IMG/VR virus record: IMGVR_UViG_3300025585_000152
Location: 1-25,340 of that record
Length of the DNA stretch: 25,340 bases
Source of the DNA: a virus
Direction: 5' to 3' (one strand)
Position 1 is the stretch's first letter. Each line of letters begins with the position of its first letter. A model generated the notes under the pieces. The model did no database searches. It had not been told where the DNA came from and saw only the letters and a list, made by a program, of their open reading frames with translations. Positions 1,704 through 16,798 of this stretch are shown here, one piece after another. Both the position numbers and the translations under genes were made by a program.

Positions 1704-2309
1704 TTAGTCCTCCTGTTGTGATGCCGCTTCCCTGCGGCGGGTTTTGCAGTCCTGCTTTGCGCAGTCGTAACTGCATGTTGGTCGCCCCGTTGCGCGCCTG
1801 ACAGCGCAGGAGTTCATCAGGGCATAACTTACTGTTTGGTCTTTGCTGGCTTCCCTCGGCTTCGTGGGTTCGTCCAGCGGGTCGTGAAACTCGGGGACTT
1901 CAGCCCGCGCCTGCTGCTTCCAGCGGAGGGATTGAGCCGCCCTGTAGGCGATCTCCTCCGCTTCGGTCCTGCCTTCACGGGCGAAGGTGTTTGGTTCTGC
2001 CCGATGACGCGGGAGGCCCGGAGCCGGTGCCGCTTCGCGCAGGATGTCCACGAGGTTCGCAATGGTCGGCCACCACGTCGAGCGGCGGATGTGTTCGCTA
2101 AGCGCATTGTGCAACCGGTCGGCGGGGTAAGCCCCCAGCGTCGCGTGCCATTCAGCCACCATCAGGCGCATGTCAACGCCCCGGCGCTCGCCGTAATTCG
2201 CAAGGCAGCGGGCGATGAGTTTGGCCGCGTCATCCGTTGATGACCTGACCGGAACGGACAATGTCGGCAAGCTGTTCGAGTTGTGACTTTGCGCCAATTC
2301 TTGAGCCAT
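1704..2309 (-). CDS. Putative replicative helicase loader (G39P/P-like)
   Basis: About 201 aa. The preferred start is the ATG at 2309, with GGGAG just upstream; an in-frame ATG at 2336 is possible. Both overlap the 3' end of the O-like gene by 80 or more bases. The N-terminal third contains DDAAKLIARCLANYG, then WHATLGAYPADRLHNALSE and STWWPTIANLVDILRE. The pattern of a helix, then YPxxxxxxAL, then FPTIAxL, is that of helicase-loader domains such as G39P of phage SPP1 and similar phage proteins. The C-terminal part has four cysteines (SCAV, TCSYDCAKQDC) that could form a metal site. Its position straight after an O-like initiator matches the O-P order of lambdoid phages. The function is inferred from weak similarity and context. 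Confidence 0.55.
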   Translation of the reverse strand: MAQELAQSHNSNSLPTLSVPVRSSTDDAAKLIARCLANYGERRGVDMRLMVAEWHATLGAYPADRLHNALSEHIRRSTWWPTIANLVDILREAAPAPGLPRHRAEPNTFAREGRTEAEEIAYRAAQSLRWKQQARAEVPEFHDPLDEPTKPREASKDQTVSYALMNSCAVRRATGRPTCSYDCAKQDCKTRRREAASQQED

Positions 2310-3051
2310 TTCCCGCTCCCTTGAGTTGATCCACATACGGCGAGGTGGCCCAGTTCAGCCAAGCCCTGCGCCAATCTTTCATCCGCTTGCCATTTGCCGC
2401 GAAGTGGTTCGCGAACCGCTCCGCCTCCGGCTCCAGGTCGATCTGGGTCTTGCCTGCCCGCGCCCGCGCCGCCTCGGCGTCACGCACCCAATCGTCAGGG
2501 ATGACCGCATCGGGAGGCCACGAGGAACCAGCAGGGGCTTTGGAGGCGCGTTGGTGTTTCTCGACAACCGGTGGCGCAGGTTCGTCACCCTCGCGCGCTA
2601 CCGAACGAAGTGAGGTATCTTTCTTATCTGTATCTGTATCTGTATCTGTATCTGTACGCGTGACATTTTCGTGACCTACCGTGACGTCACGCGTGACAGC
2701 AGATTTCTGCGCTTTTTCACGCTCCCGCTGCCTTTGCTTGCGTTCTCGCGCGGTCGGGTCTGCGTCACTTGCGTGCTGATGATCGCCCCAATCATGCAGA
2801 CGGTACGTCGTGACGCCATCGTGACTGTCACGCGTGACAAGTCCGGCTGTCACGAGGCGTGACATAAGCCCAATCACCTCCGTCTCGGAAACACGAGCAG
2901 CCCACGCCACGTCTTCTTCACTGGGAAGGGTGCCATCATCATCGCTCAGCATCAGCAGGGAGGCCCAGAAGCCGCGCTCCTCAAGCGTAAGCCTGCCCAC
3001 CTTCGGCTTCAGAATTGCGTCGCGGTACAGGCGGACCCATGGCTTTGCCAT
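2230..3051 (-). CDS. Phage replication protein O-like (winged-helix initiator)
   Basis: A 273-aa protein starting at the ATG 3051, immediately after the TGA of the previous gene. Residues 1-90 (RLYRDAILKPKVGRLTLEERGFWASL ... EVIGLMSRLVTAGLVTR ... TTYRLHDWGDHQ) have the layout of the winged-helix DNA-binding domain of phage O-like and DnaD-like replication proteins. Then come a charged linker, VTRDVT repeats, a (TD)5 run at residues 133-142, and a C-terminal module (WPPDAVIPDDWV ... EAERFANHFAANGKRMKDWRRAWLNWA) that is common at the end of such proteins. The coding DNA holds a cluster of GTGAC/GTCAC repeats, described separately as a candidate origin, as in phage lambda, where ori lies inside O. 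A helicase-loader-like gene follows. Confidence 0.75.
   Translation of the reverse strand: MAKPWVRLYRDAILKPKVGRLTLEERGFWASLLMLSDDDGTLPSEEDVAWAARVSETEVIGLMSRLVTAGLVTRDSHDGVTTYRLHDWGDHQHASDADPTARERKQRQREREKAQKSAVTRDVTVGHENVTRTDTDTDTDTDKKDTSLRSVAREGDEPAPPVVEKHQRASKAPAGSSWPPDAVIPDDWVRDAEAARARAGKTQIDLEPEAERFANHFAANGKRMKDWRRAWLNWATSPYVDQLKGAGNGSRIGAKSQLEQLADIVRSGQVING
2625..2654. repeat. Five tandem copies of TATCTG
   Basis: Five perfect head-to-tail hexamers, read in the O-like gene (minus strand) as alternating Thr-Asp codons (residues 133-142). The tract is richer in A+T than its surroundings and borders the GTGAC cluster, so it may be part of an unwinding region. It could equally be a slippage-prone linker; TD runs are frequent in phage replication proteins. 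Confidence 0.85.
2660..2863. other. Candidate replication origin: GTGAC/GTCAC repeat cluster
   Basis: Within 204 bases of the O-like gene I count eight GTGAC (2660, 2671, 2681, 2693, 2810, 2821, 2834, 2859) and four GTCAC (2686, 2764, 2827, 2849). The palindrome GTCACGCGTGAC occurs twice, at 2686-2697 and 2827-2838. Less than one such pentamer would be expected by chance in this length. A (TATCTG)5 tract lies beside it. Iterons within an initiator gene are known from phage lambda; use as an origin here is inference. Confidence 0.5.
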
Positions 3052-3342: not shown

Positions 3343-3707
3343 GTGCACGTTCTCACCTCGACGCGGACTTCACGTCCGTTCAGGGATGGCATGTCTGTTT
3401 CAAACGCCCAACGGACATGAAGCTGGTGCACAAGGTTGTCATTCTCCAGCAGGTTGCCCGCCTGAAGCGCGTCAAGGACCGGCTTGATACAGTTGTCCAA
3501 GTCCCTAAGTTTGTGGACCCGCTTCATGATGAGGACGATCTCGACCGGCGCGGTGAACGTCTGCCCCTTCCTTGAGGCGAGGACTTCCATGCAAGCCGAT
3601 GTTTTCCACGCCTTGTATTCAGCACTTGGGTGCATTCCATAGATGCCCTTGCGCCACATCTTGTTGGCGCTTGGGGGCGTGTCGAGGAGGACAGAAGCGA
3701 AGGTCAT
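3339..3707 (-). CDS. rusA: RusA-family Holliday junction resolvase
   Basis: A 122-aa endonuclease that resolves four-way DNA junctions arising in phage replication and recombination. The start ATG 3707 overlaps the upstream stop (ATGA). Diagnostic features are the N-terminal PPSANKMW (residues 11-18) and the motif RDLDNCIKPVLDALQ followed by LLENDNLVHQL. The acidic residues D69, D71 and D90 and lysine K75 line up with the catalytic D70, D72, D91 and K76 of E. coli RusA. The length matches the family (about 120 aa). It lies between the DnaA-domain/HNH gene and the O-like initiator. The identification is strong. Confidence 0.93.
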   Translation of the reverse strand: MTFASVLLDTPPSANKMWRKGIYGMHPSAEYKAWKTSACMEVLASRKGQTFTAPVEIVLIMKRVHKLRDLDNCIKPVLDALQAGNLLENDNLVHQLHVRWAFETDMPSLNGREVRVEVRTCT

Positions 3708-4564
3708 TCGGCTGCCATCCCGAACTGCTGTTGCTCAGGCTTGTGCTGCTTCTTGAGCACGATGTTGTTGACTTGTGCCTGGCTGATGCCGTGCTGCCGG
3801 GCCAACTGGTATTGCGTGGCGAGCCCTGCCGCGTAGTCCTGCCTGATTTGGTCGATAACTGATTGGCTGGTAATCTTGGCGTTGCCATTCCTGACCCCGC
3901 GCATGGTCATGCCGTGCCAATCACGGTCTGCCGCATTCCCCTTGGCGGTGTCGTATCGCAGGTTGCTGATATTGTTGTTCAACCTGTTTCCATCGGCGTG
4001 ACAAATCTGCATTCCACGCGGTCGTGGTCCCGCAAACGCCTCCATCACAATGCGATGAACGGGCCAGTAGACGGCCCGCCCATTCGGTGAGTTCTGAAAT
4101 GTGATGTAGAAATAGCCGTTGCCGCCAATAACCGGCTGACGGATGCGGCCGCTTGCGTCAAACCTGACAAGCCCGTTGTTTGACACGCTGTATTTTGGCT
4201 GGCCCTCTACCTGCCGCCACTCGGACTGCCCTTCGGCGATCAGCTTGGCTCGTGAGGCTGACGCGATTGCCCGAGCGTTTTCCGCTGTCAGATTCGCCTT
4301 CTTCGTTACGACTGAGCCAGCCTTGGCGTGATGCATACAGGTGCTGTGATCTAGCCCAAAGAAGCGCCCTAGCCGTGGGTAGGACCAACCCATAACGTGA
4401 CGAATGCGCCAGATGCAGTCGCCACGAACCCGAGACACCCAGTGGTCACGGTTGTCGGACATGACCTGCTCAATGGTGATGGGTGAACCCATAGCGTAGT
4501 GCCACCACACGACTTCGCGGCAGAGGTCCAAGGCTTTCTCGCGCGGGGTTCGAATGTCGCTCAT
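3704..4564 (-). CDS. DnaA domain IV-like / HNH homing endonuclease fusion
   Basis: A 286-aa protein starting at ATG 4564, which overlaps the previous stop by four bases. Residues about 31-90 (IEQVMSDNRDHWVSRVRG ... YPRLGRFFGLDHSTCMHHAKA) resemble the DnaA C-terminal DNA-binding domain, with GLDHSTCMHHAKA at 70-82 matching the DnaA signature (GxDHSTVxxA). Residues 114-160 (EWRQVEGQPKYSVSNNGLVR) look like NUMOD4. Residues 168-215 (PVHRIVMEAFAGPRP ... ICHADGNRLNNNISNLRYDT) form an HNH_3 core. Residues 232-270 form a helix-turn-helix resembling the modules at the end of homing endonucleases. There is no AAA+ domain. The two halves are in one frame with no stop. It may be a standalone DnaA-IV gene invaded by an HNH gene. 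Confidence 0.85.
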   Translation of the reverse strand: MSDIRTPREKALDLCREVVWWHYAMGSPITIEQVMSDNRDHWVSRVRGDCIWRIRHVMGWSYPRLGRFFGLDHSTCMHHAKAGSVVTKKANLTAENARAIASASRAKLIAEGQSEWRQVEGQPKYSVSNNGLVRFDASGRIRQPVIGGNGYFYITFQNSPNGRAVYWPVHRIVMEAFAGPRPRGMQICHADGNRLNNNISNLRYDTAKGNAADRDWHGMTMRGVRNGNAKITSQSVIDQIRQDYAAGLATQYQLARQHGISQAQVNNIVLKKQHKPEQQQFGMAAE

Positions 4565-4800
4565 GCCCACACCGCTGCGCTGATGGCCCCGCCGAAGAAG
4601 AAAAAGACGGCGAGGCATTGCCACCAAATGATTAACGCCTCGTCCCAATCATCATCCGTGAACGTGTCGAATTTACCAAGAATGAACGCTGATCGGAATG
4701 GTGCGTTCCCTGCTTTCAGGACAGACGCAATATTATTGCGCACGCTTTGCTGCACCGCATCAATGTGAAGCTGTCCCAGATTATAAACGATGTTCCCCAT
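4561..4800 (-). CDS. Small protein with C-terminal membrane segment
   Basis: A 79-aa protein with ATG at 4800, GAGG six bases upstream. The first 55 residues are soluble and contain an acidic patch (DTFTDDDWDEA); residues about 57-78 (IIWWQCLAVFFFFGGAISAAVWA) form a clear hydrophobic segment ending at the C-terminus, as in tail-anchored proteins. It overlaps the end of the HTH regulator by 20 bases and the start of the DnaA/HNH gene by four. No family is recognised and the function is unknown. Confidence 0.65.
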   Translation of the reverse strand: MGNIVYNLGQLHIDAVQQSVRNNIASVLKAGNAPFRSAFILGKFDTFTDDDWDEALIIWWQCLAVFFFFGGAISAAVWA

Positions 4801-9508: not shown

Positions 9509-9576
9509 CCGACCCAATGCTTGCCGCGTTGCTTGTTTTTATCGGCTTTATGCTAGGGAGGATGTACCCAGAATGA
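9505..9576 (+). CDS. 23-aa membrane mini-protein
   Basis: A very short reading frame, MTDPMLAALLVFIGFMLGRM plus YPE, exactly bridging two coupled genes: its ATG overlaps the previous stop and its stop overlaps the next ATG at 9573. About 14 residues are hydrophobic, enough for a short membrane helix. The double coupling argues that it is translated; there is no independent evidence. Confidence 0.45.
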   Translation: MTDPMLAALLVFIGFMLGRMYPE

Positions 9577-10139
9577 CCGACATCGTGAAGGGTATGGCGC
9601 GGACAATTTGGGATGTTAACGCGGTCCGGCAGAACTTCGATTACGACCCTGAAACGGGGGTTGTGAGAAAGTTAAGCCGTGGGCGGATGATGGTGTGCGC
9701 CGCCCTGAACAACAAGGGGTACGTCTCCACCCGGTTGAATGGCCGCTACATATCCGGCCACACTGTGGCGTTCATCCTGACCACGGGGAGAAACCCTGGC
9801 CACTCAATCGACCACATCAACGGCAACAGGTCTGACAACAGATGGTCAAATCTGCGCGAGTGTGACCAGTTTCAAAACATGGCCAACAGGGTCGGCCCAC
9901 AACGAAATTCGAAATCTGGCGCTAGGGGCGTGAGTTGGCGGCAATGGCGCGCAAACTCTGGGGCGTGGGAGGCGAAGATAGAGCACAAAGGCAAGACGCA
10001 CCACCTTGGGTACTTCAAGACGGTTGCGGAGGCATTGGCCGTCAGAGAGAGGAAGGCGGCAGAATTGTTCGGCGAGTTCTCTGGTGGCCACGTGAAAGAC
10101 GCAGCAGCCATTCGCGCTGCGGCAGGGGGTGGGGAGTGA
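9573..10139 (+). CDS. HNH homing endonuclease with AP2-like DNA-binding domain
   Basis: A 188-aa protein. Residues about 45-95 (LNNKGYVSTRLNGRYISGHTVAF ... SIDHINGNRSDNRWSNLREC) contain an HNH_3-type core with IDHINGNRSDN, followed by NSKSGARGVSWRQWR (residues about 113-127), then WEAKIEHKGKTHHLGYFKT and AALAVRERK-like helices, which is the AP2 DNA-binding fold common to phage-borne HNH enzymes. It is probably a free-standing homing endonuclease sitting in the early operon. No interrupted neighbouring gene is obvious, apart from the truncated frame just after it (10182-10241). Paralogous in type, but not obviously in sequence, to the HNH half of the fusion at 3704-4564. Confidence 0.88.
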   Translation: MTDIVKGMARTIWDVNAVRQNFDYDPETGVVRKLSRGRMMVCAALNNKGYVSTRLNGRYISGHTVAFILTTGRNPGHSIDHINGNRSDNRWSNLRECDQFQNMANRVGPQRNSKSGARGVSWRQWRANSGAWEAKIEHKGKTHHLGYFKTVAEALAVRERKAAELFGEFSGGHVKDAAAIRAAAGGGE

Positions 10140-10241: not shown

Positions 10242-10274
10242 TTAACCAGCATGATAAATGAGGAGGAGCGGAAC

Positions 10275-10973
10275 ATGCAGGATAAGATAATAGCCACAAT
10301 GCTGACTGGGCTGGACATTGCCTTGGAGGGGCTGGCTAGACTTTCAGTTGATGAGCAAGTTGATGCTGTAAACCAAATGCGTGCCATGATTCACGCGCGC
10401 AGCCCGTTTGCACAAGAGCCGGTTGACTACGTTAAGTGGGTCAAAGCCGGAACTGTAGAGGCAAACGACTATAACCCCAATTCAGTAGCCCCACCAGAAA
10501 TGGAGTTGCTGAGGCACTCCATTATGAGCGATGGCTACACGCAGCCAATTGTTGCCAACGCTGAAGATGAGCGCCTGATCGTCATTGATGGGTTTCACCG
10601 CAACCGCGTCGGCAAAGAATGCAAAGACGTTGCGCAACGAGTGCTTGGCTACCTGCCAATTGTTCAGATCAAGGAAAGCCAGACCGGGAAGGCCGATAGG
10701 ATGGCATCGACGATCCGGCACAATCGCGCACGTGGGAAGCATCGCGTTGATGCGATGTCGGACATTGTGCTTGAACTGAAGCGCCGCAACTGGAGCAACG
10801 AGAAGATTGGGAAAGAGCTTGGCATGGACCCTGACGAGGTTTTGCGCTTGACCCAAATTGGCGGCCTTGCTGAGATGTTCGCCGACAAGGAATTCACCGA
10901 AGCGTGGGAGCCTGGAACAATCAACGACGCAGATTTGAGCGGCGAGAAGTTCGAGGACGGCGATGACGATTAG
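10275..10973 (+). CDS. ibrB: IbrB-like ParB/Srx-domain protein
   Basis: A 232-aa protein. The ATG at 10275 is chosen because AGGAGG lies eight bases upstream (10260-10265); an ATG at 10251 is in frame but lacks a site. Residues 51-120 carry the ParB/sulfiredoxin-type module: VDYVKWVKAGTVEANDYNPN, SVAPPEMELLRHSIMSDGYT, QPIV, then VIDGFHRNRVGKE. MASTIRHNRARGKHR follows, and an HTH-like stretch (NEKIGKELGMDPDEVLRLTQ) lies at about 175-194. This is the pattern of IbrB of E. coli prophages, which works with IbrA. The C-terminus is very acidic. Two genes on is an IbrA-like gene. The biochemical role of the family is not settled: known as a regulator pair for eib genes. Confidence 0.8.
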   Translation: MQDKIIATMLTGLDIALEGLARLSVDEQVDAVNQMRAMIHARSPFAQEPVDYVKWVKAGTVEANDYNPNSVAPPEMELLRHSIMSDGYTQPIVANAEDERLIVIDGFHRNRVGKECKDVAQRVLGYLPIVQIKESQTGKADRMASTIRHNRARGKHRVDAMSDIVLELKRRNWSNEKIGKELGMDPDEVLRLTQIGGLAEMFADKEFTEAWEPGTINDADLSGEKFEDGDDD

Positions 10974-11376
10974 AATTTATCACCATTACGAAAAGCTCGA
11001 AGAGTTTCACGCCGGGATGTGGAAGCGTCCCGTTGGCCCAACGCGCAAGAAGTTTATCCTTGACGCGGCAGACCTGATGCGAAGCCCAGACGAATTCAAG
11101 CTGGCGATGCAGAGGGCGACGGAAGACTGGCCGATATCCTGCCAGCACAATTTAACGTCGCTCGATAGCAACCGCATTGCGTGGCTTGGCCATGCGGGGT
11201 GCTGCGTTGCAGTCAATTCGCCAGAAGAGTGCACGCGGGTTGGTTGGCACACATTGAACCAAGCAGAGCAGGATGACGCCAACAGGGTGGCGGCAGAGGT
11301 TCTTGCGGAATGGGACGCTGTGAACTTAGGAGGAGGAAAACAATGCTCAAAGAGCCAATTGGAATTAACGTTCTAG
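10963..11376 (+). CDS. Conserved small protein between ibrB- and ibrA-like genes
   Basis: A 137-aa protein with ATG at 10963, overlapping the end of the ibrB-like gene by 11 bases, and running 34 bases into the ibrA-like gene. It contains YEKLEEFHAGMWKRP, then EDWPISCQHNLTSLDSNRIAW and LGHAGCCVAVNSPEE, then WHTLNQAEQDDANRVAAE. From memory, the WPISCxxNLT ... NRxAWxGHA ... CPExxTRxAW pattern belongs to a conserved family of phage proteins of unknown function, including ones from enterobacterial phages. The tight overlaps suggest co-expression with both flanking genes. No catalytic residue is established, although the conserved Cys and His pairs invite the thought of metal binding. Confidence 0.7.
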   Translation: MTIRIYHHYEKLEEFHAGMWKRPVGPTRKKFILDAADLMRSPDEFKLAMQRATEDWPISCQHNLTSLDSNRIAWLGHAGCCVAVNSPEECTRVGWHTLNQAEQDDANRVAAEVLAEWDAVNLGGGKQCSKSQLELTF

Positions 11377-12587
11377 AAGCTGCGCGCCAACGCATATCGT
11401 GGACGTTTGACAACTTCGAACGTGTCTATCTGTCATTCAGTGCAGGCAAGGACAGCACTATCATGCTTCACCTTGTGGCAGACGAAGCGCGCAAGCGTGG
11501 CGTCCGCTTCGGGTTGATGATTGTTGACCTGGAGGGGCAGTACAAACTCACGATTGAGCACATGCAAAAGTGCGTCGATATGTACGCTGATTGCATTGAG
11601 TTGTTTTGGGTGTGCCTCCCTATCCACCTGAGAAACGCCGTGAGCGTGTACGAGCCGTTCTGGATGTGCTGGGACCCAAACGCAAAAGACGCATGGGTGC
11701 GCGCACTGCCAGAAAAATCAATCTCCGACGAAACATATTTCCCATTCTTTCGGCGCGGAATGGAATTCGAGGAGTTTGTGCCAGAGTTTGGCGAGTGGTA
11801 TTCACAGGGCAAGTCGTGCGCCTGCTTTGTTGGCATTCGAACAGATGAAAGCTTGAACCGCTTTAGAACTATCGTCCAGTCAAAGAAAGAGACCAAAGAC
11901 GGAAAGCGGTACACCAGCCGGGTAACTGAGAACTGCTTTAACGTCTACCCGATCTACGACTGGAAATCATCGGACATATGGGTGTACCACGCCAAGAATG
12001 AAGACAGGCCGTACAACAAGCTGTATGACCGAATGCACCAAGCTGGGGTCCCGCTTGGGCACATGCGCATATGCCAGCCCTACGGTGACGACCAGAGGCG
12101 CGGGCTGTGGCTGTTCCACCTTGTGGAGCCTGAGACGTGGTCTAAAGTTGTAGCCCGTGTGAACGGCGCAAATGGTGGCGCGCTATACGTTCAGGAGTGG
12201 GGCAACATCAATGGGTACAGGGGCGTCACAAAGCCACCCGGCCACACTTGGAAGTCGTTCGCCAAGCTTCTCGTTGACAGTATGCCGCCGAAGACGCGCG
12301 TGCATTATCGCAACAAAGTTCTGACGTTTGAGAAGTGGTGGTTGGATAAAGGATACCCAGATGGCATTCCAGATGAGGCCGCGTATGACATGGAGGCGGC
12401 AAGGCGCGCTCCGTCTTGGAGACGGGTGTGCAAGTCGCTGCTTAGGAATGACTATTGGTGCAAGGGGCTTGGATTTTCTCAGCACAAGAGCGAGGCGTAC
12501 AAGAAGTATTTGGACCTGATGAAGCGTAGGAAAGAGGCTTGGGGTGTAGCTGATGGGCAGCTCGGCTTATTTGGCGAGGCCCATTAA
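11343..12587 (+). CDS. ibrA: IbrA-like PAPS reductase-family protein (DUF3440)
   Basis: A 414-aa protein. The ATG at 11343 follows AGGAGGAAAACA, a strong ribosome-binding site. Residues 28-45 (VYLSFSAGKDSTIMLHLV) carry the PP-loop S-x-G-K-D-S of adenylyl-transferring ATP pyrophosphatases and PAPS reductases. GLMIVDLEGQYKLTIEHM follows, then CACFVGIRTDESLNRFRTI with the G-I-R-x-x-E-S/R motif, then YPIYDWKSSDIWVYHAKN and a long C-terminal part (PLGHMRICQPYGDDQRRGL) characteristic of the DUF3440/IbrA family. No E-C-G-L-H catalytic cysteine motif of true PAPS reductases is visible. IbrA acts with IbrB as a regulator in E. coli prophages; the related DndC takes part in DNA sulfur modification. The chemistry here is open. 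Confidence 0.88.
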   Translation: MLKEPIGINVLEAARQRISWTFDNFERVYLSFSAGKDSTIMLHLVADEARKRGVRFGLMIVDLEGQYKLTIEHMQKCVDMYADCIELFWVCLPIHLRNAVSVYEPFWMCWDPNAKDAWVRALPEKSISDETYFPFFRRGMEFEEFVPEFGEWYSQGKSCACFVGIRTDESLNRFRTIVQSKKETKDGKRYTSRVTENCFNVYPIYDWKSSDIWVYHAKNEDRPYNKLYDRMHQAGVPLGHMRICQPYGDDQRRGLWLFHLVEPETWSKVVARVNGANGGALYVQEWGNINGYRGVTKPPGHTWKSFAKLLVDSMPPKTRVHYRNKVLTFEKWWLDKGYPDGIPDEAAYDMEAARRAPSWRRVCKSLLRNDYWCKGLGFSQHKSEAYKKYLDLMKRRKEAWGVADGQLGLFGEAH

Positions 12588-16150: not shown

Positions 16151-16798
16151 TCATGTGACTGGGGTTACGCGCGTATAACGTCCAACATATCCAACAACTT
16201 CACCGGAATTCTTGATGACTGGAGATGCGGCAGCCTTGACTGCGTACCGCTTCCCGCTTCGGGACTGCACAGTGAATTCAGATTCAAAAGCCCTCTTGCG
16301 TGCTGCGGCGTCCACCCATTCCGAATAAACACGGGCACGATCCGAAGGCAGCACGAAGTTCTCCCACCCTGCCCCTATCAGTTCAGCCGGGGTGCGCTCC
16401 GCGAGGGATGTATATTCCAGATTGACACGGGTGCAGTTGCCCTCGGCGTCCGTGTGCCATACGGGACCGGCGGCGAGGATTTCAGCAGCCTGGAATTGAT
16501 ACGCGCGGATTTCCTCAAGGGACGAAACAACAACCTTGATTTGAGCCGCATTGTCCTTCGACTCCTTGGCACTCTCTGAAACAAGGTCGAATATGCTGCT
16601 GCCGCCGTTCGGCCTCAGTTGCTTCTGTATATCCTGAAGCCCGGACACAAGGGTATTGTGCGTCTCAATAACCTTGTTGAATTGCTTGGTCGTTAACATC
16701 ACTCGCCTAACCGCCCATGCCACGCCGGATGTTGCGAGCGCCCCCAGCCCAACGGCTGCTTGGGCGCTTTCAAAAAACGACAAATCGAACGCGACCAT
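16151..16798 (-). CDS. Membrane-anchored PAS-domain protein
   Basis: A 215-aa protein. An N-terminal hydrophobic helix at about residues 13-34 (QAAVGLGALATSGVAWAVRRV) is followed by a helical linker (about 37-104, including FNKVIETHNTLVSGLQDIQK and AAQIKVVVSSLEEIRAYQ), then a PAS fold (about 105-211): ILAAGPVWHTDAEGNCTRVN, LAERTPAELIGAGWENFVLP, SDRARVYSEWVD, FTVQSRSGKRYAVKAAASPV and GEVVGYVGRYT. PAS domains sense ligands, redox state or light and usually pair with an output domain; none is present here. The gene lies between the endolysin and the metallophosphoesterase. Whether it senses a lysis cue or is a structural membrane protein cannot be told. Confidence 0.8.
   Translation of the reverse strand: MVAFDLSFFESAQAAVGLGALATSGVAWAVRRVMLTTKQFNKVIETHNTLVSGLQDIQKQLRPNGGSSIFDLVSESAKESKDNAAQIKVVVSSLEEIRAYQFQAAEILAAGPVWHTDAEGNCTRVNLEYTSLAERTPAELIGAGWENFVLPSDRARVYSEWVDAAARKRAFESEFTVQSRSGKRYAVKAAASPVIKNSGEVVGYVGRYTRVTPVT

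Follow-up and report, generated by a model that had tools for sequence, protein, structure and literature searches.

X, a small protein family of viral IbrA-IbrB modules, is most likely a third subunit

Introduction

IbrA and IbrB of Escherichia coli prophages and plasmids, like YbdN and YbdM of strain K-12, are an adjacent pair made of a DUF3440/PAPS_reduct protein and a ParB-like protein. For two decades annotations have credited the pair with coactivating prophage gene expression, and the IbrA-type genes of phages are listed as 'PAPS reductase' (phosphoadenosine phosphosulfate reductase), with no mechanism being given. DndB and DndC likewise combine a ParB-superfamily protein with a PP-loop enzyme. 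A related locus is described here in the IMG/VR virus record IMGVR_UViG_3300025585_000152, which was analysed over 25,340 bases (the window). In this locus a small gene, called X here, lies between the genes of IbrB and IbrA and overlaps both. The initial annotation had read the three same-strand genes, with their motifs DGFHR, WPISC and AWLGHA, as a functional unit in which the middle gene may be a third component. The reading frames proved intact, the motifs are present as described, and the wider survey bears out both the unit and the role given to the middle gene, through co-occurrence, gene orders and gene fusions. X is a small protein family that has not been described before, attached to a pair that is known and unexplained. 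It is most likely the third subunit of the module.

Association of X with IbrA and IbrB

Relatives of X were searched in IMG/VR with the single sequence and then with a profile, and the best 80 of 176 were taken, one per contig. Every open reading frame (ORF) of the fetched contigs, most of which were fragments, was scored with profiles of X, IbrA and IbrB, and the gene orders were tallied (92 loci in the gene-order table, since 12 contigs were fetched twice). IbrA, whole or cut, was found in 80/80 of the X-seeded contigs. IbrB was found in 78/80, the other two loci running off the end of the examined DNA. A second sample was seeded with the 80 best matches to the window IbrA and over-represents the window's side of the family; 65 of its 80 contigs carried X and 79 carried IbrB, the exception (L137) ending inside ibrA. 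The initial annotation had proposed such a neighbour count for the gene at 10963-11376, and X turned out to be tied to ibrA and ibrB elsewhere as well. Each of the 32 whole module-bearing records holds exactly one X match (32/32). As a separate observation, one phage has two tandem, diverged X genes between IbrB and IbrA (L061, 5580-6363).

Among cultured phages, an IbrA-like match occurs in 216 records and X in six, with IbrA nearby in all six. Plasmids gave X in 0 records versus IbrA in 655. A single X was met among 84,980 bacterial species with one strict pattern, by which divergent copies may be missed. X is thus nearly confined to viruses and goes with IbrAB as its partner. A scan for a temperate life style found a tyrosine integrase in 3/33 module-bearing records, and this low number fits the rarity of X in bacterial chromosomes. 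The word 'cargo', used in the initial annotation, is apt insofar as the module occurs in unrelated phages and less so insofar as X is tied to IbrAB and is not carried at random.

Gene orders were compared along an IbrA tree of 148 loci from which near-copies had been removed. The order B-X-A is found in 67 loci, X-A-B in 21, and a fused IbrB~X followed by IbrA in 19, while X-Ac-A-B (8), A-B-X-Ac (8), B-X-Ac-A (3) and a few others make up further arrangements. The order A-B without X is seen in 18/148 loci, some of which had been picked as reference phages. In each of the 19 fusions, one uninterrupted frame encodes IbrB followed by X, with a linker of about 12-31 residues between them, and at least four changes must be assumed on the IbrA tree to explain them. 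Ac, a small gene in its own right, resembles IbrA in the C-terminal part alone (profile positions 324-400). It directly adjoins X in 19 non-redundant loci, where the full-length IbrA keeps its own C-terminal domain.

In a clade without X, represented by 10 loci that include the one of Chlorobiaceae phage CV-1-33, another small protein, Y, is encoded directly upstream of IbrA. Y carries the motif PWVA.ITG, and its only match is a weak one to phrog_26647, a PHROG of unknown function. Y and X were never found together among the loci examined. A relationship between the two was considered and rejected, the hhalign probability of the profile comparison being 0.1.

The gene orders, the IbrB~X fusions and the presence of Y in place of X say that viral IbrAB would have a small third partner with which it normally works. 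Contact between X and IbrB is predicted by the fusions, and the spare copy of the IbrA C-terminal domain beside X suggests that X may also contact this domain. The viral IbrA-IbrB pair is probably incomplete without X.

The X protein itself belongs to a new family. Searches of Pfam, NCBIfam, PHROGs and PADLOC gave no match to the window X, and 0/81 family members match Pfam. Only single, scattered members match PHROGs and NCBIfam, with no consistent family, and no family match was found among the sequences of the Protein Data Bank (PDB), the best E-value being 0.16. X was modelled only within a fused IbrB~X homologue (L148), where its part is all helical with a predicted local distance difference test (pLDDT) score of 97-99; in the fold search with this fusion model, the match list was filled by the IbrB part. 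Between X and its two partners the correlation of pairwise distances is weak (r 0.24 for IbrA, 0.19 for IbrB), compared with 0.78 between IbrA and IbrB. The mirror-tree test is therefore unusable as support for X, which may evolve fast or, alternatively, get exchanged.

Folds and motifs of IbrB and IbrA

IbrB matches the ParB-like family phrog_2159 (5.5e-69). Its architecture, a ParB/Srx-fold domain with a nucleotide site followed by a KorB-like helix-turn-helix, was read from the L148 fusion model (135 rows; pLDDT 90, predicted template modelling score (pTM) 0.57). The IbrB part of this model aligns with both domains of KorB (8qa9_B; Z 14.0, root-mean-square deviation (rmsd) 4.6, 163 residues aligned) and with the KorB DNA-binding domain alone (1r71; Z 9.7, rmsd 0.9 Å, 57 aligned). 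In the pocket motif DGFHR, the residues D, G, H and R are invariant in 46 sequences. The motif aligns with DGVHR of SbnI and with GERR of ParB; in IbrB the invariant DG.HR takes the place of the GERR phosphate-binding motif of the cytidine triphosphate (CTP) switches ParB and KorB. From the modelled fold, IbrB is predicted to bind both nucleotide and DNA.

IbrA matches PAPS_reduct (3.4e-15) and, over a C-terminal domain of about 140 residues, DUF3440 (3.5e-34). The alignment of 94 sequences contains 34 invariant columns, and a model built with these sequences reached a pLDDT of 88. The closest folds to residues 4-270 are FAD synthase, adenosine phosphosulfate (APS) and PAPS reductases, and CysD, which are tied at Z 14-15.6 (FAD synthase 8rom, Z 15.6, rmsd 3.4, 168 aligned; APS reductase 7lhr, Z 15.3; CysD 1zun, Z 14.6). 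IbrA belongs to the PP-loop ATPase superfamily by both its phosphate-loop motif and its fold. FAD synthase and CysD both transfer adenosine monophosphate (AMP). IbrA is a candidate AMP-transferring or substrate-adenylylating enzyme; adenylation chemistry is a possibility that the fold comparison favours.

Accessory genes of related modules

Two types of accessory gene are found in related modules, and the window has neither. A GNAT-like acetyltransferase lies within the module or at its edge in 12 loci, most often between X and IbrA. An initial cluster of 28 such loci had to be discarded, as it consisted mostly of out-of-frame ORFs inside ibrA, and a profile search left the 12. The second type is a cupin that matches the ectoine-synthase family (PF06339, 4.3e-31). 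It lies within or beside the module in 18 loci, and in several of them (L021, L079, L080, L083) it forms an N-terminal fusion to IbrB. In BFVD, the cupin-IbrB fusion of Mycobacterium phage Gaia is labelled 'L-ectoine synthase'. GNAT and cupin do not share a locus among the loci examined.

The iron ligands of the ectoine synthase EctC are Glu-57, Tyr-84 and His-92, and Trp-21 and Asn-38 are substrate residues (PMC6344544). In nine cupin sequences, E53, Y81 and H89 are invariant with the spacing of the iron ligands. Trp-21 and Asn-38 are not kept at the corresponding cupin positions 17 and 34, and the substrate of the cupin therefore probably differs from that of EctC.

In a number of phages, a gene for a RadD-like superfamily 2 (SF2) helicase is located near or beside the module (phrog_16; NF053632 with 9.2e-89 for L172). 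Part of the helicase cluster likewise consisted of out-of-frame ORFs inside ibrA and was rejected.

Proposed mechanism and alternative explanations

From these observations we infer the chemistry and role of the module, whose three genes are seen to be associated. The reading that we prefer, with a probability of roughly one half, is a DNA-associated, adenylylating complex of IbrA, IbrB and X, with X as the adaptor between the other two. The three genes would encode one dedicated complex, the viral IbrA-IbrB pair plus the third subunit X. The KorB-like helix-turn-helix of IbrB would bind DNA, and the DGxHR ParB/Srx pocket of the same protein would hold a nucleotide. X, placed at the C-terminal end of IbrB, would dock on the C-terminal DUF3440 domain of IbrA and thereby tether the enzyme to the IbrB-bound DNA. 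IbrA would use adenosine triphosphate (ATP) for AMP transfer or for substrate activation by adenylylation; it would neither reduce PAPS nor insert sulfur, and its substrate is a guess. The complex may act in early infection on phage DNA, host DNA or a DNA-bound molecule, and the GNAT or the ectoine-synthase-like cupin may tailor the product in some phages.

Several points weigh against this reading. IbrAB pairs of plasmids and bacteria lack X, which can therefore be dispensed with in some settings. The placement of IbrB relative to X in the fusion model is unreliable at the pTM given above, and the distance correlation of X is weak. No palindromic IbrB operator common to the loci was found beyond the A/T-rich background. 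AMP transfer by IbrA is predicted from fold and motif, and the nearest folds include reductases too.

The main rival is the regulation of gene expression, which may coexist with chemistry. IbrB would then regulate phage or host promoters with X as a partner domain, IbrA would modify a protein or sense a metabolite, and no DNA or base would be modified. In annotations, IbrA and IbrB figure as coactivators or regulators of gene expression in prophages (PMC5874904, PMC8813620), the nearest fold of IbrB is that of a transcriptional repressor, KorB, and the K-12 homologues YbdNM are under a LysR regulator adjoining citrate genes (PMC9068703). Such a function leaves, however, the strictly conserved PP-loop enzyme, with its 34 invariant columns, as well as the GNAT and cupin accessories, without a clear role, and no common operator was found. 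We consider it possible, if rather doubtful. For a role in defence or counter-defence, which the initial annotation also raised, the results speak neither for nor against.

A bolder version of the adenylylating complex is an undescribed viral pathway formed by IbrA, IbrB, X or Y, and optionally the GNAT or the EctC-like cupin. A nucleic acid or nucleotide would carry an adenylylated intermediate, and this would be coupled to an amine, which is later acetylated or cyclised. The result would be DNA (or RNA) hypermodification of a new class, for which the ParB-like DNA-binding subunit sets the direction. This proposal is improbable, and new modification chemistry has a small chance. The GNAT and cupin accessories point to real chemistry, which mass spectrometry could reveal.

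Sulfur chemistry was also raised in the initial annotation, on the model of the Dnd system. IbrA would be an analogue of DndC and IbrB of DndB, and sulfur would be inserted into nucleic acid. DndC is indeed a PP-loop enzyme and DndB a member of the ParB superfamily (PMC10853773), and IbrA has weak matches to DndC models (6.3e-05; PADLOC 9.1e-07). It nonetheless scores 22 bits with the DndC model TIGR03183, whose cut-off lies at 290.4. An iron-sulfur cluster and a cysteine dyad are features of DndC (PMC10853773), whereas no cysteine column of IbrA reaches 90% in 94 sequences, the highest being 87%. A cysteine desulfurase (PF00266) was found in 0/33 module-bearing records, many of which are fragments, and a host enzyme could substitute. 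Because IbrA has no conserved cysteines and the phages no cysteine desulfurase, sulfur chemistry by the module is unlikely, and this part of the initial annotation was not borne out; phosphorothioation in particular is very unlikely.

Even less credit can be given to IbrA as a true PAPS reductase, with its gene as an auxiliary metabolic gene that serves sulfate assimilation. The database name 'phosphoadenosine phosphosulfate reductase' and the PAPS_reduct domain suggest it, but IbrA falls far below the cut-offs of the cysH models (TIGR00434, 30.6 versus 165.1 bits; TIGR02057, 32 versus 254.2), has no conserved catalytic cysteine, and is partnered by a ParB/KorB-fold protein in every complete locus. 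The missing cysteines call for caution in classing such genes as sulfur-metabolism auxiliary genes. Equally far-fetched is X as a hitchhiking small phage gene that stands beside ibrAB by chance, which would agree with its weak distance correlation with IbrA and IbrB and is contradicted by the 80/80 co-occurrence in several gene orders, the 19 IbrB~X fusions, the near absence of X outside the module, the single X per phage in 32/32 records and the fact that no X gene was found far from ibrAB.

Layout and surroundings of the locus

The coordinates of the module and the loci with additional genes are given in Table 1. On the plus strand, several early-type phage genes (HNH, PD-(D/E)XK, NinB) follow one another, and the trio closes the series. 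Profile matches to NinB, PD-(D/E)XK, RusA and a virion protein in this virus record agree with the phage origin assumed earlier. IbrB and X overlap by 11 nucleotides (nt), and X and IbrA by 34 nt, or by 67 nt if IbrA starts at 11310; ATG 11343, preceded by AGGAGGAGG at 11328-11336, is the likely start of ibrA. The overlaps suggest a single transcript for the trio. Scans for promoters and terminators gave no clear signal.

Table 1 Features of the IbrB-X-IbrA module in the window and loci carrying additional genes in related records
Feature	Position or loci	Strand	Remarks
ibrB ribosome-binding site AGGAGG	10261-10266	+	Read from sequence
IbrB	10275-10973	+	232 residues, intact ORF
IbrB pocket motif DGFHR (in IDGFHR)	10587-10601	+	ParB/Srx nucleotide pocket
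X	10963-11376	+	137 residues, intact ORF; WPISC and AWLGHA present
ibrA ribosome-binding site AGGAGGAGG	11328-11336	+	Within the X reading frame; read from sequence
IbrA	11343-12587	+	Intact ORF opening at 11310; likely start ATG 11343
IbrA PP-loop motif SFSAGKDS	11433-11456	+	S33, G35, K36, D37 and S38 invariant (94 sequences)
Y	L132-L136, L142, L145, L157, L175, L022		Upstream of ibrA
GNAT-like acetyltransferase	L047, L051, L053, L058, L068, L108, L145, L161, L165, L169, L171, L175		
Cupin	L020, L021, L055-L057, L062, L079, L080, L083, L084, L087, L089, L090, L093, L096, L099, L102, L182		
RadD-like helicase (examples)	L018 6546-8519, L065 7576-9177, L170 4379-5962, L172 3828-5453, others		

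The shift in base composition claimed earlier was counted correctly, the hand counts of guanine plus cytosine (G+C) being right at 46.7% and 61.7%. Little weight can be placed on 60 nt, however, as 4.6% of all 60-nt windows have a G+C content of 46.7% or less. The module as a whole has 53.7% G+C versus 58.2% in the window, which is in the lowest 1% of equal-sized windows and amounts to a real if modest dip.

Several neighbouring genes are worth recording. An HNH endonuclease gene (9573-10139, plus strand; HNH_3, 6.5e-12) lies directly 5' of the module and may be a mobile neighbour. On the minus strand, 3704-4648 encodes a DnaA C-terminal DNA-binding domain (3.2e-08) fused to a NUMOD4 domain and an HNH endonuclease domain; this may be a homing endonuclease that has entered a replication gene. 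A PAS-domain protein, unusual for a phage genome, is encoded at 16151-16798 (minus strand; PAS_4, 5.2e-10). The gene at 2230-3051 contains a perfect tandem repeat of TATCTG (2625-2656, 5.3 copies), which encodes TDTDTDTDTD. The DGQHR protein reported earlier at 823-1701 is present (LLDGQHRLL); its sole match is phrog_5931 (unknown function, 4.4e-62), with no Pfam match, and its gene lies on the strand opposite to the module and is unlinked to it.

Comparison with known systems

The module shares single features with several described systems. DndB and DndC resemble it in their pairing, while the module lacks the cysteines, the cysteine desulfurase and the scores above cut-off. EctC shares its three iron ligands with the accessory cupin, which is absent from the window; Trp-21 and Asn-38 of EctC are not conserved in this cupin. 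The PP-loop domain of IbrA has FAD synthase (PAPS domain) and CysD among its nearest folds, at Z 15.6 and 14.6; IbrA differs from them in its extra C-terminal DUF3440 domain and its other partners, and the PAPS/APS reductases tie with them in Z.

The CTP switches KorB, ParB and Noc have an N-terminal ParB fold and a helix-turn-helix like IbrB. In IbrB, however, GERR is replaced by DGFHR, and the partner fused to its C-terminus is X. SbnI, a ParB-like serine kinase, has the DGxHR pocket motif (DGVHR) in common with IbrB, which, unlike SbnI, also has the KorB-like helix-turn-helix.

The nearest relatives are the IbrA-IbrB pairs themselves. The window IbrA and IbrB are each 48% identical to their counterparts in E. 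coli phage PhiR5_2. The Escherichia phage pairs and the Klebsiella and Salmonella plasmid pairs inspected have the order ibrA-ibrB without X, whereas the window has B-X-A. Studies of E. coli ibrAB, which are made without X, may not reveal the full viral activity. The viral third subunit, fused to IbrB in places and found near a spare IbrA C-terminal domain, offers a concrete complex to purify.

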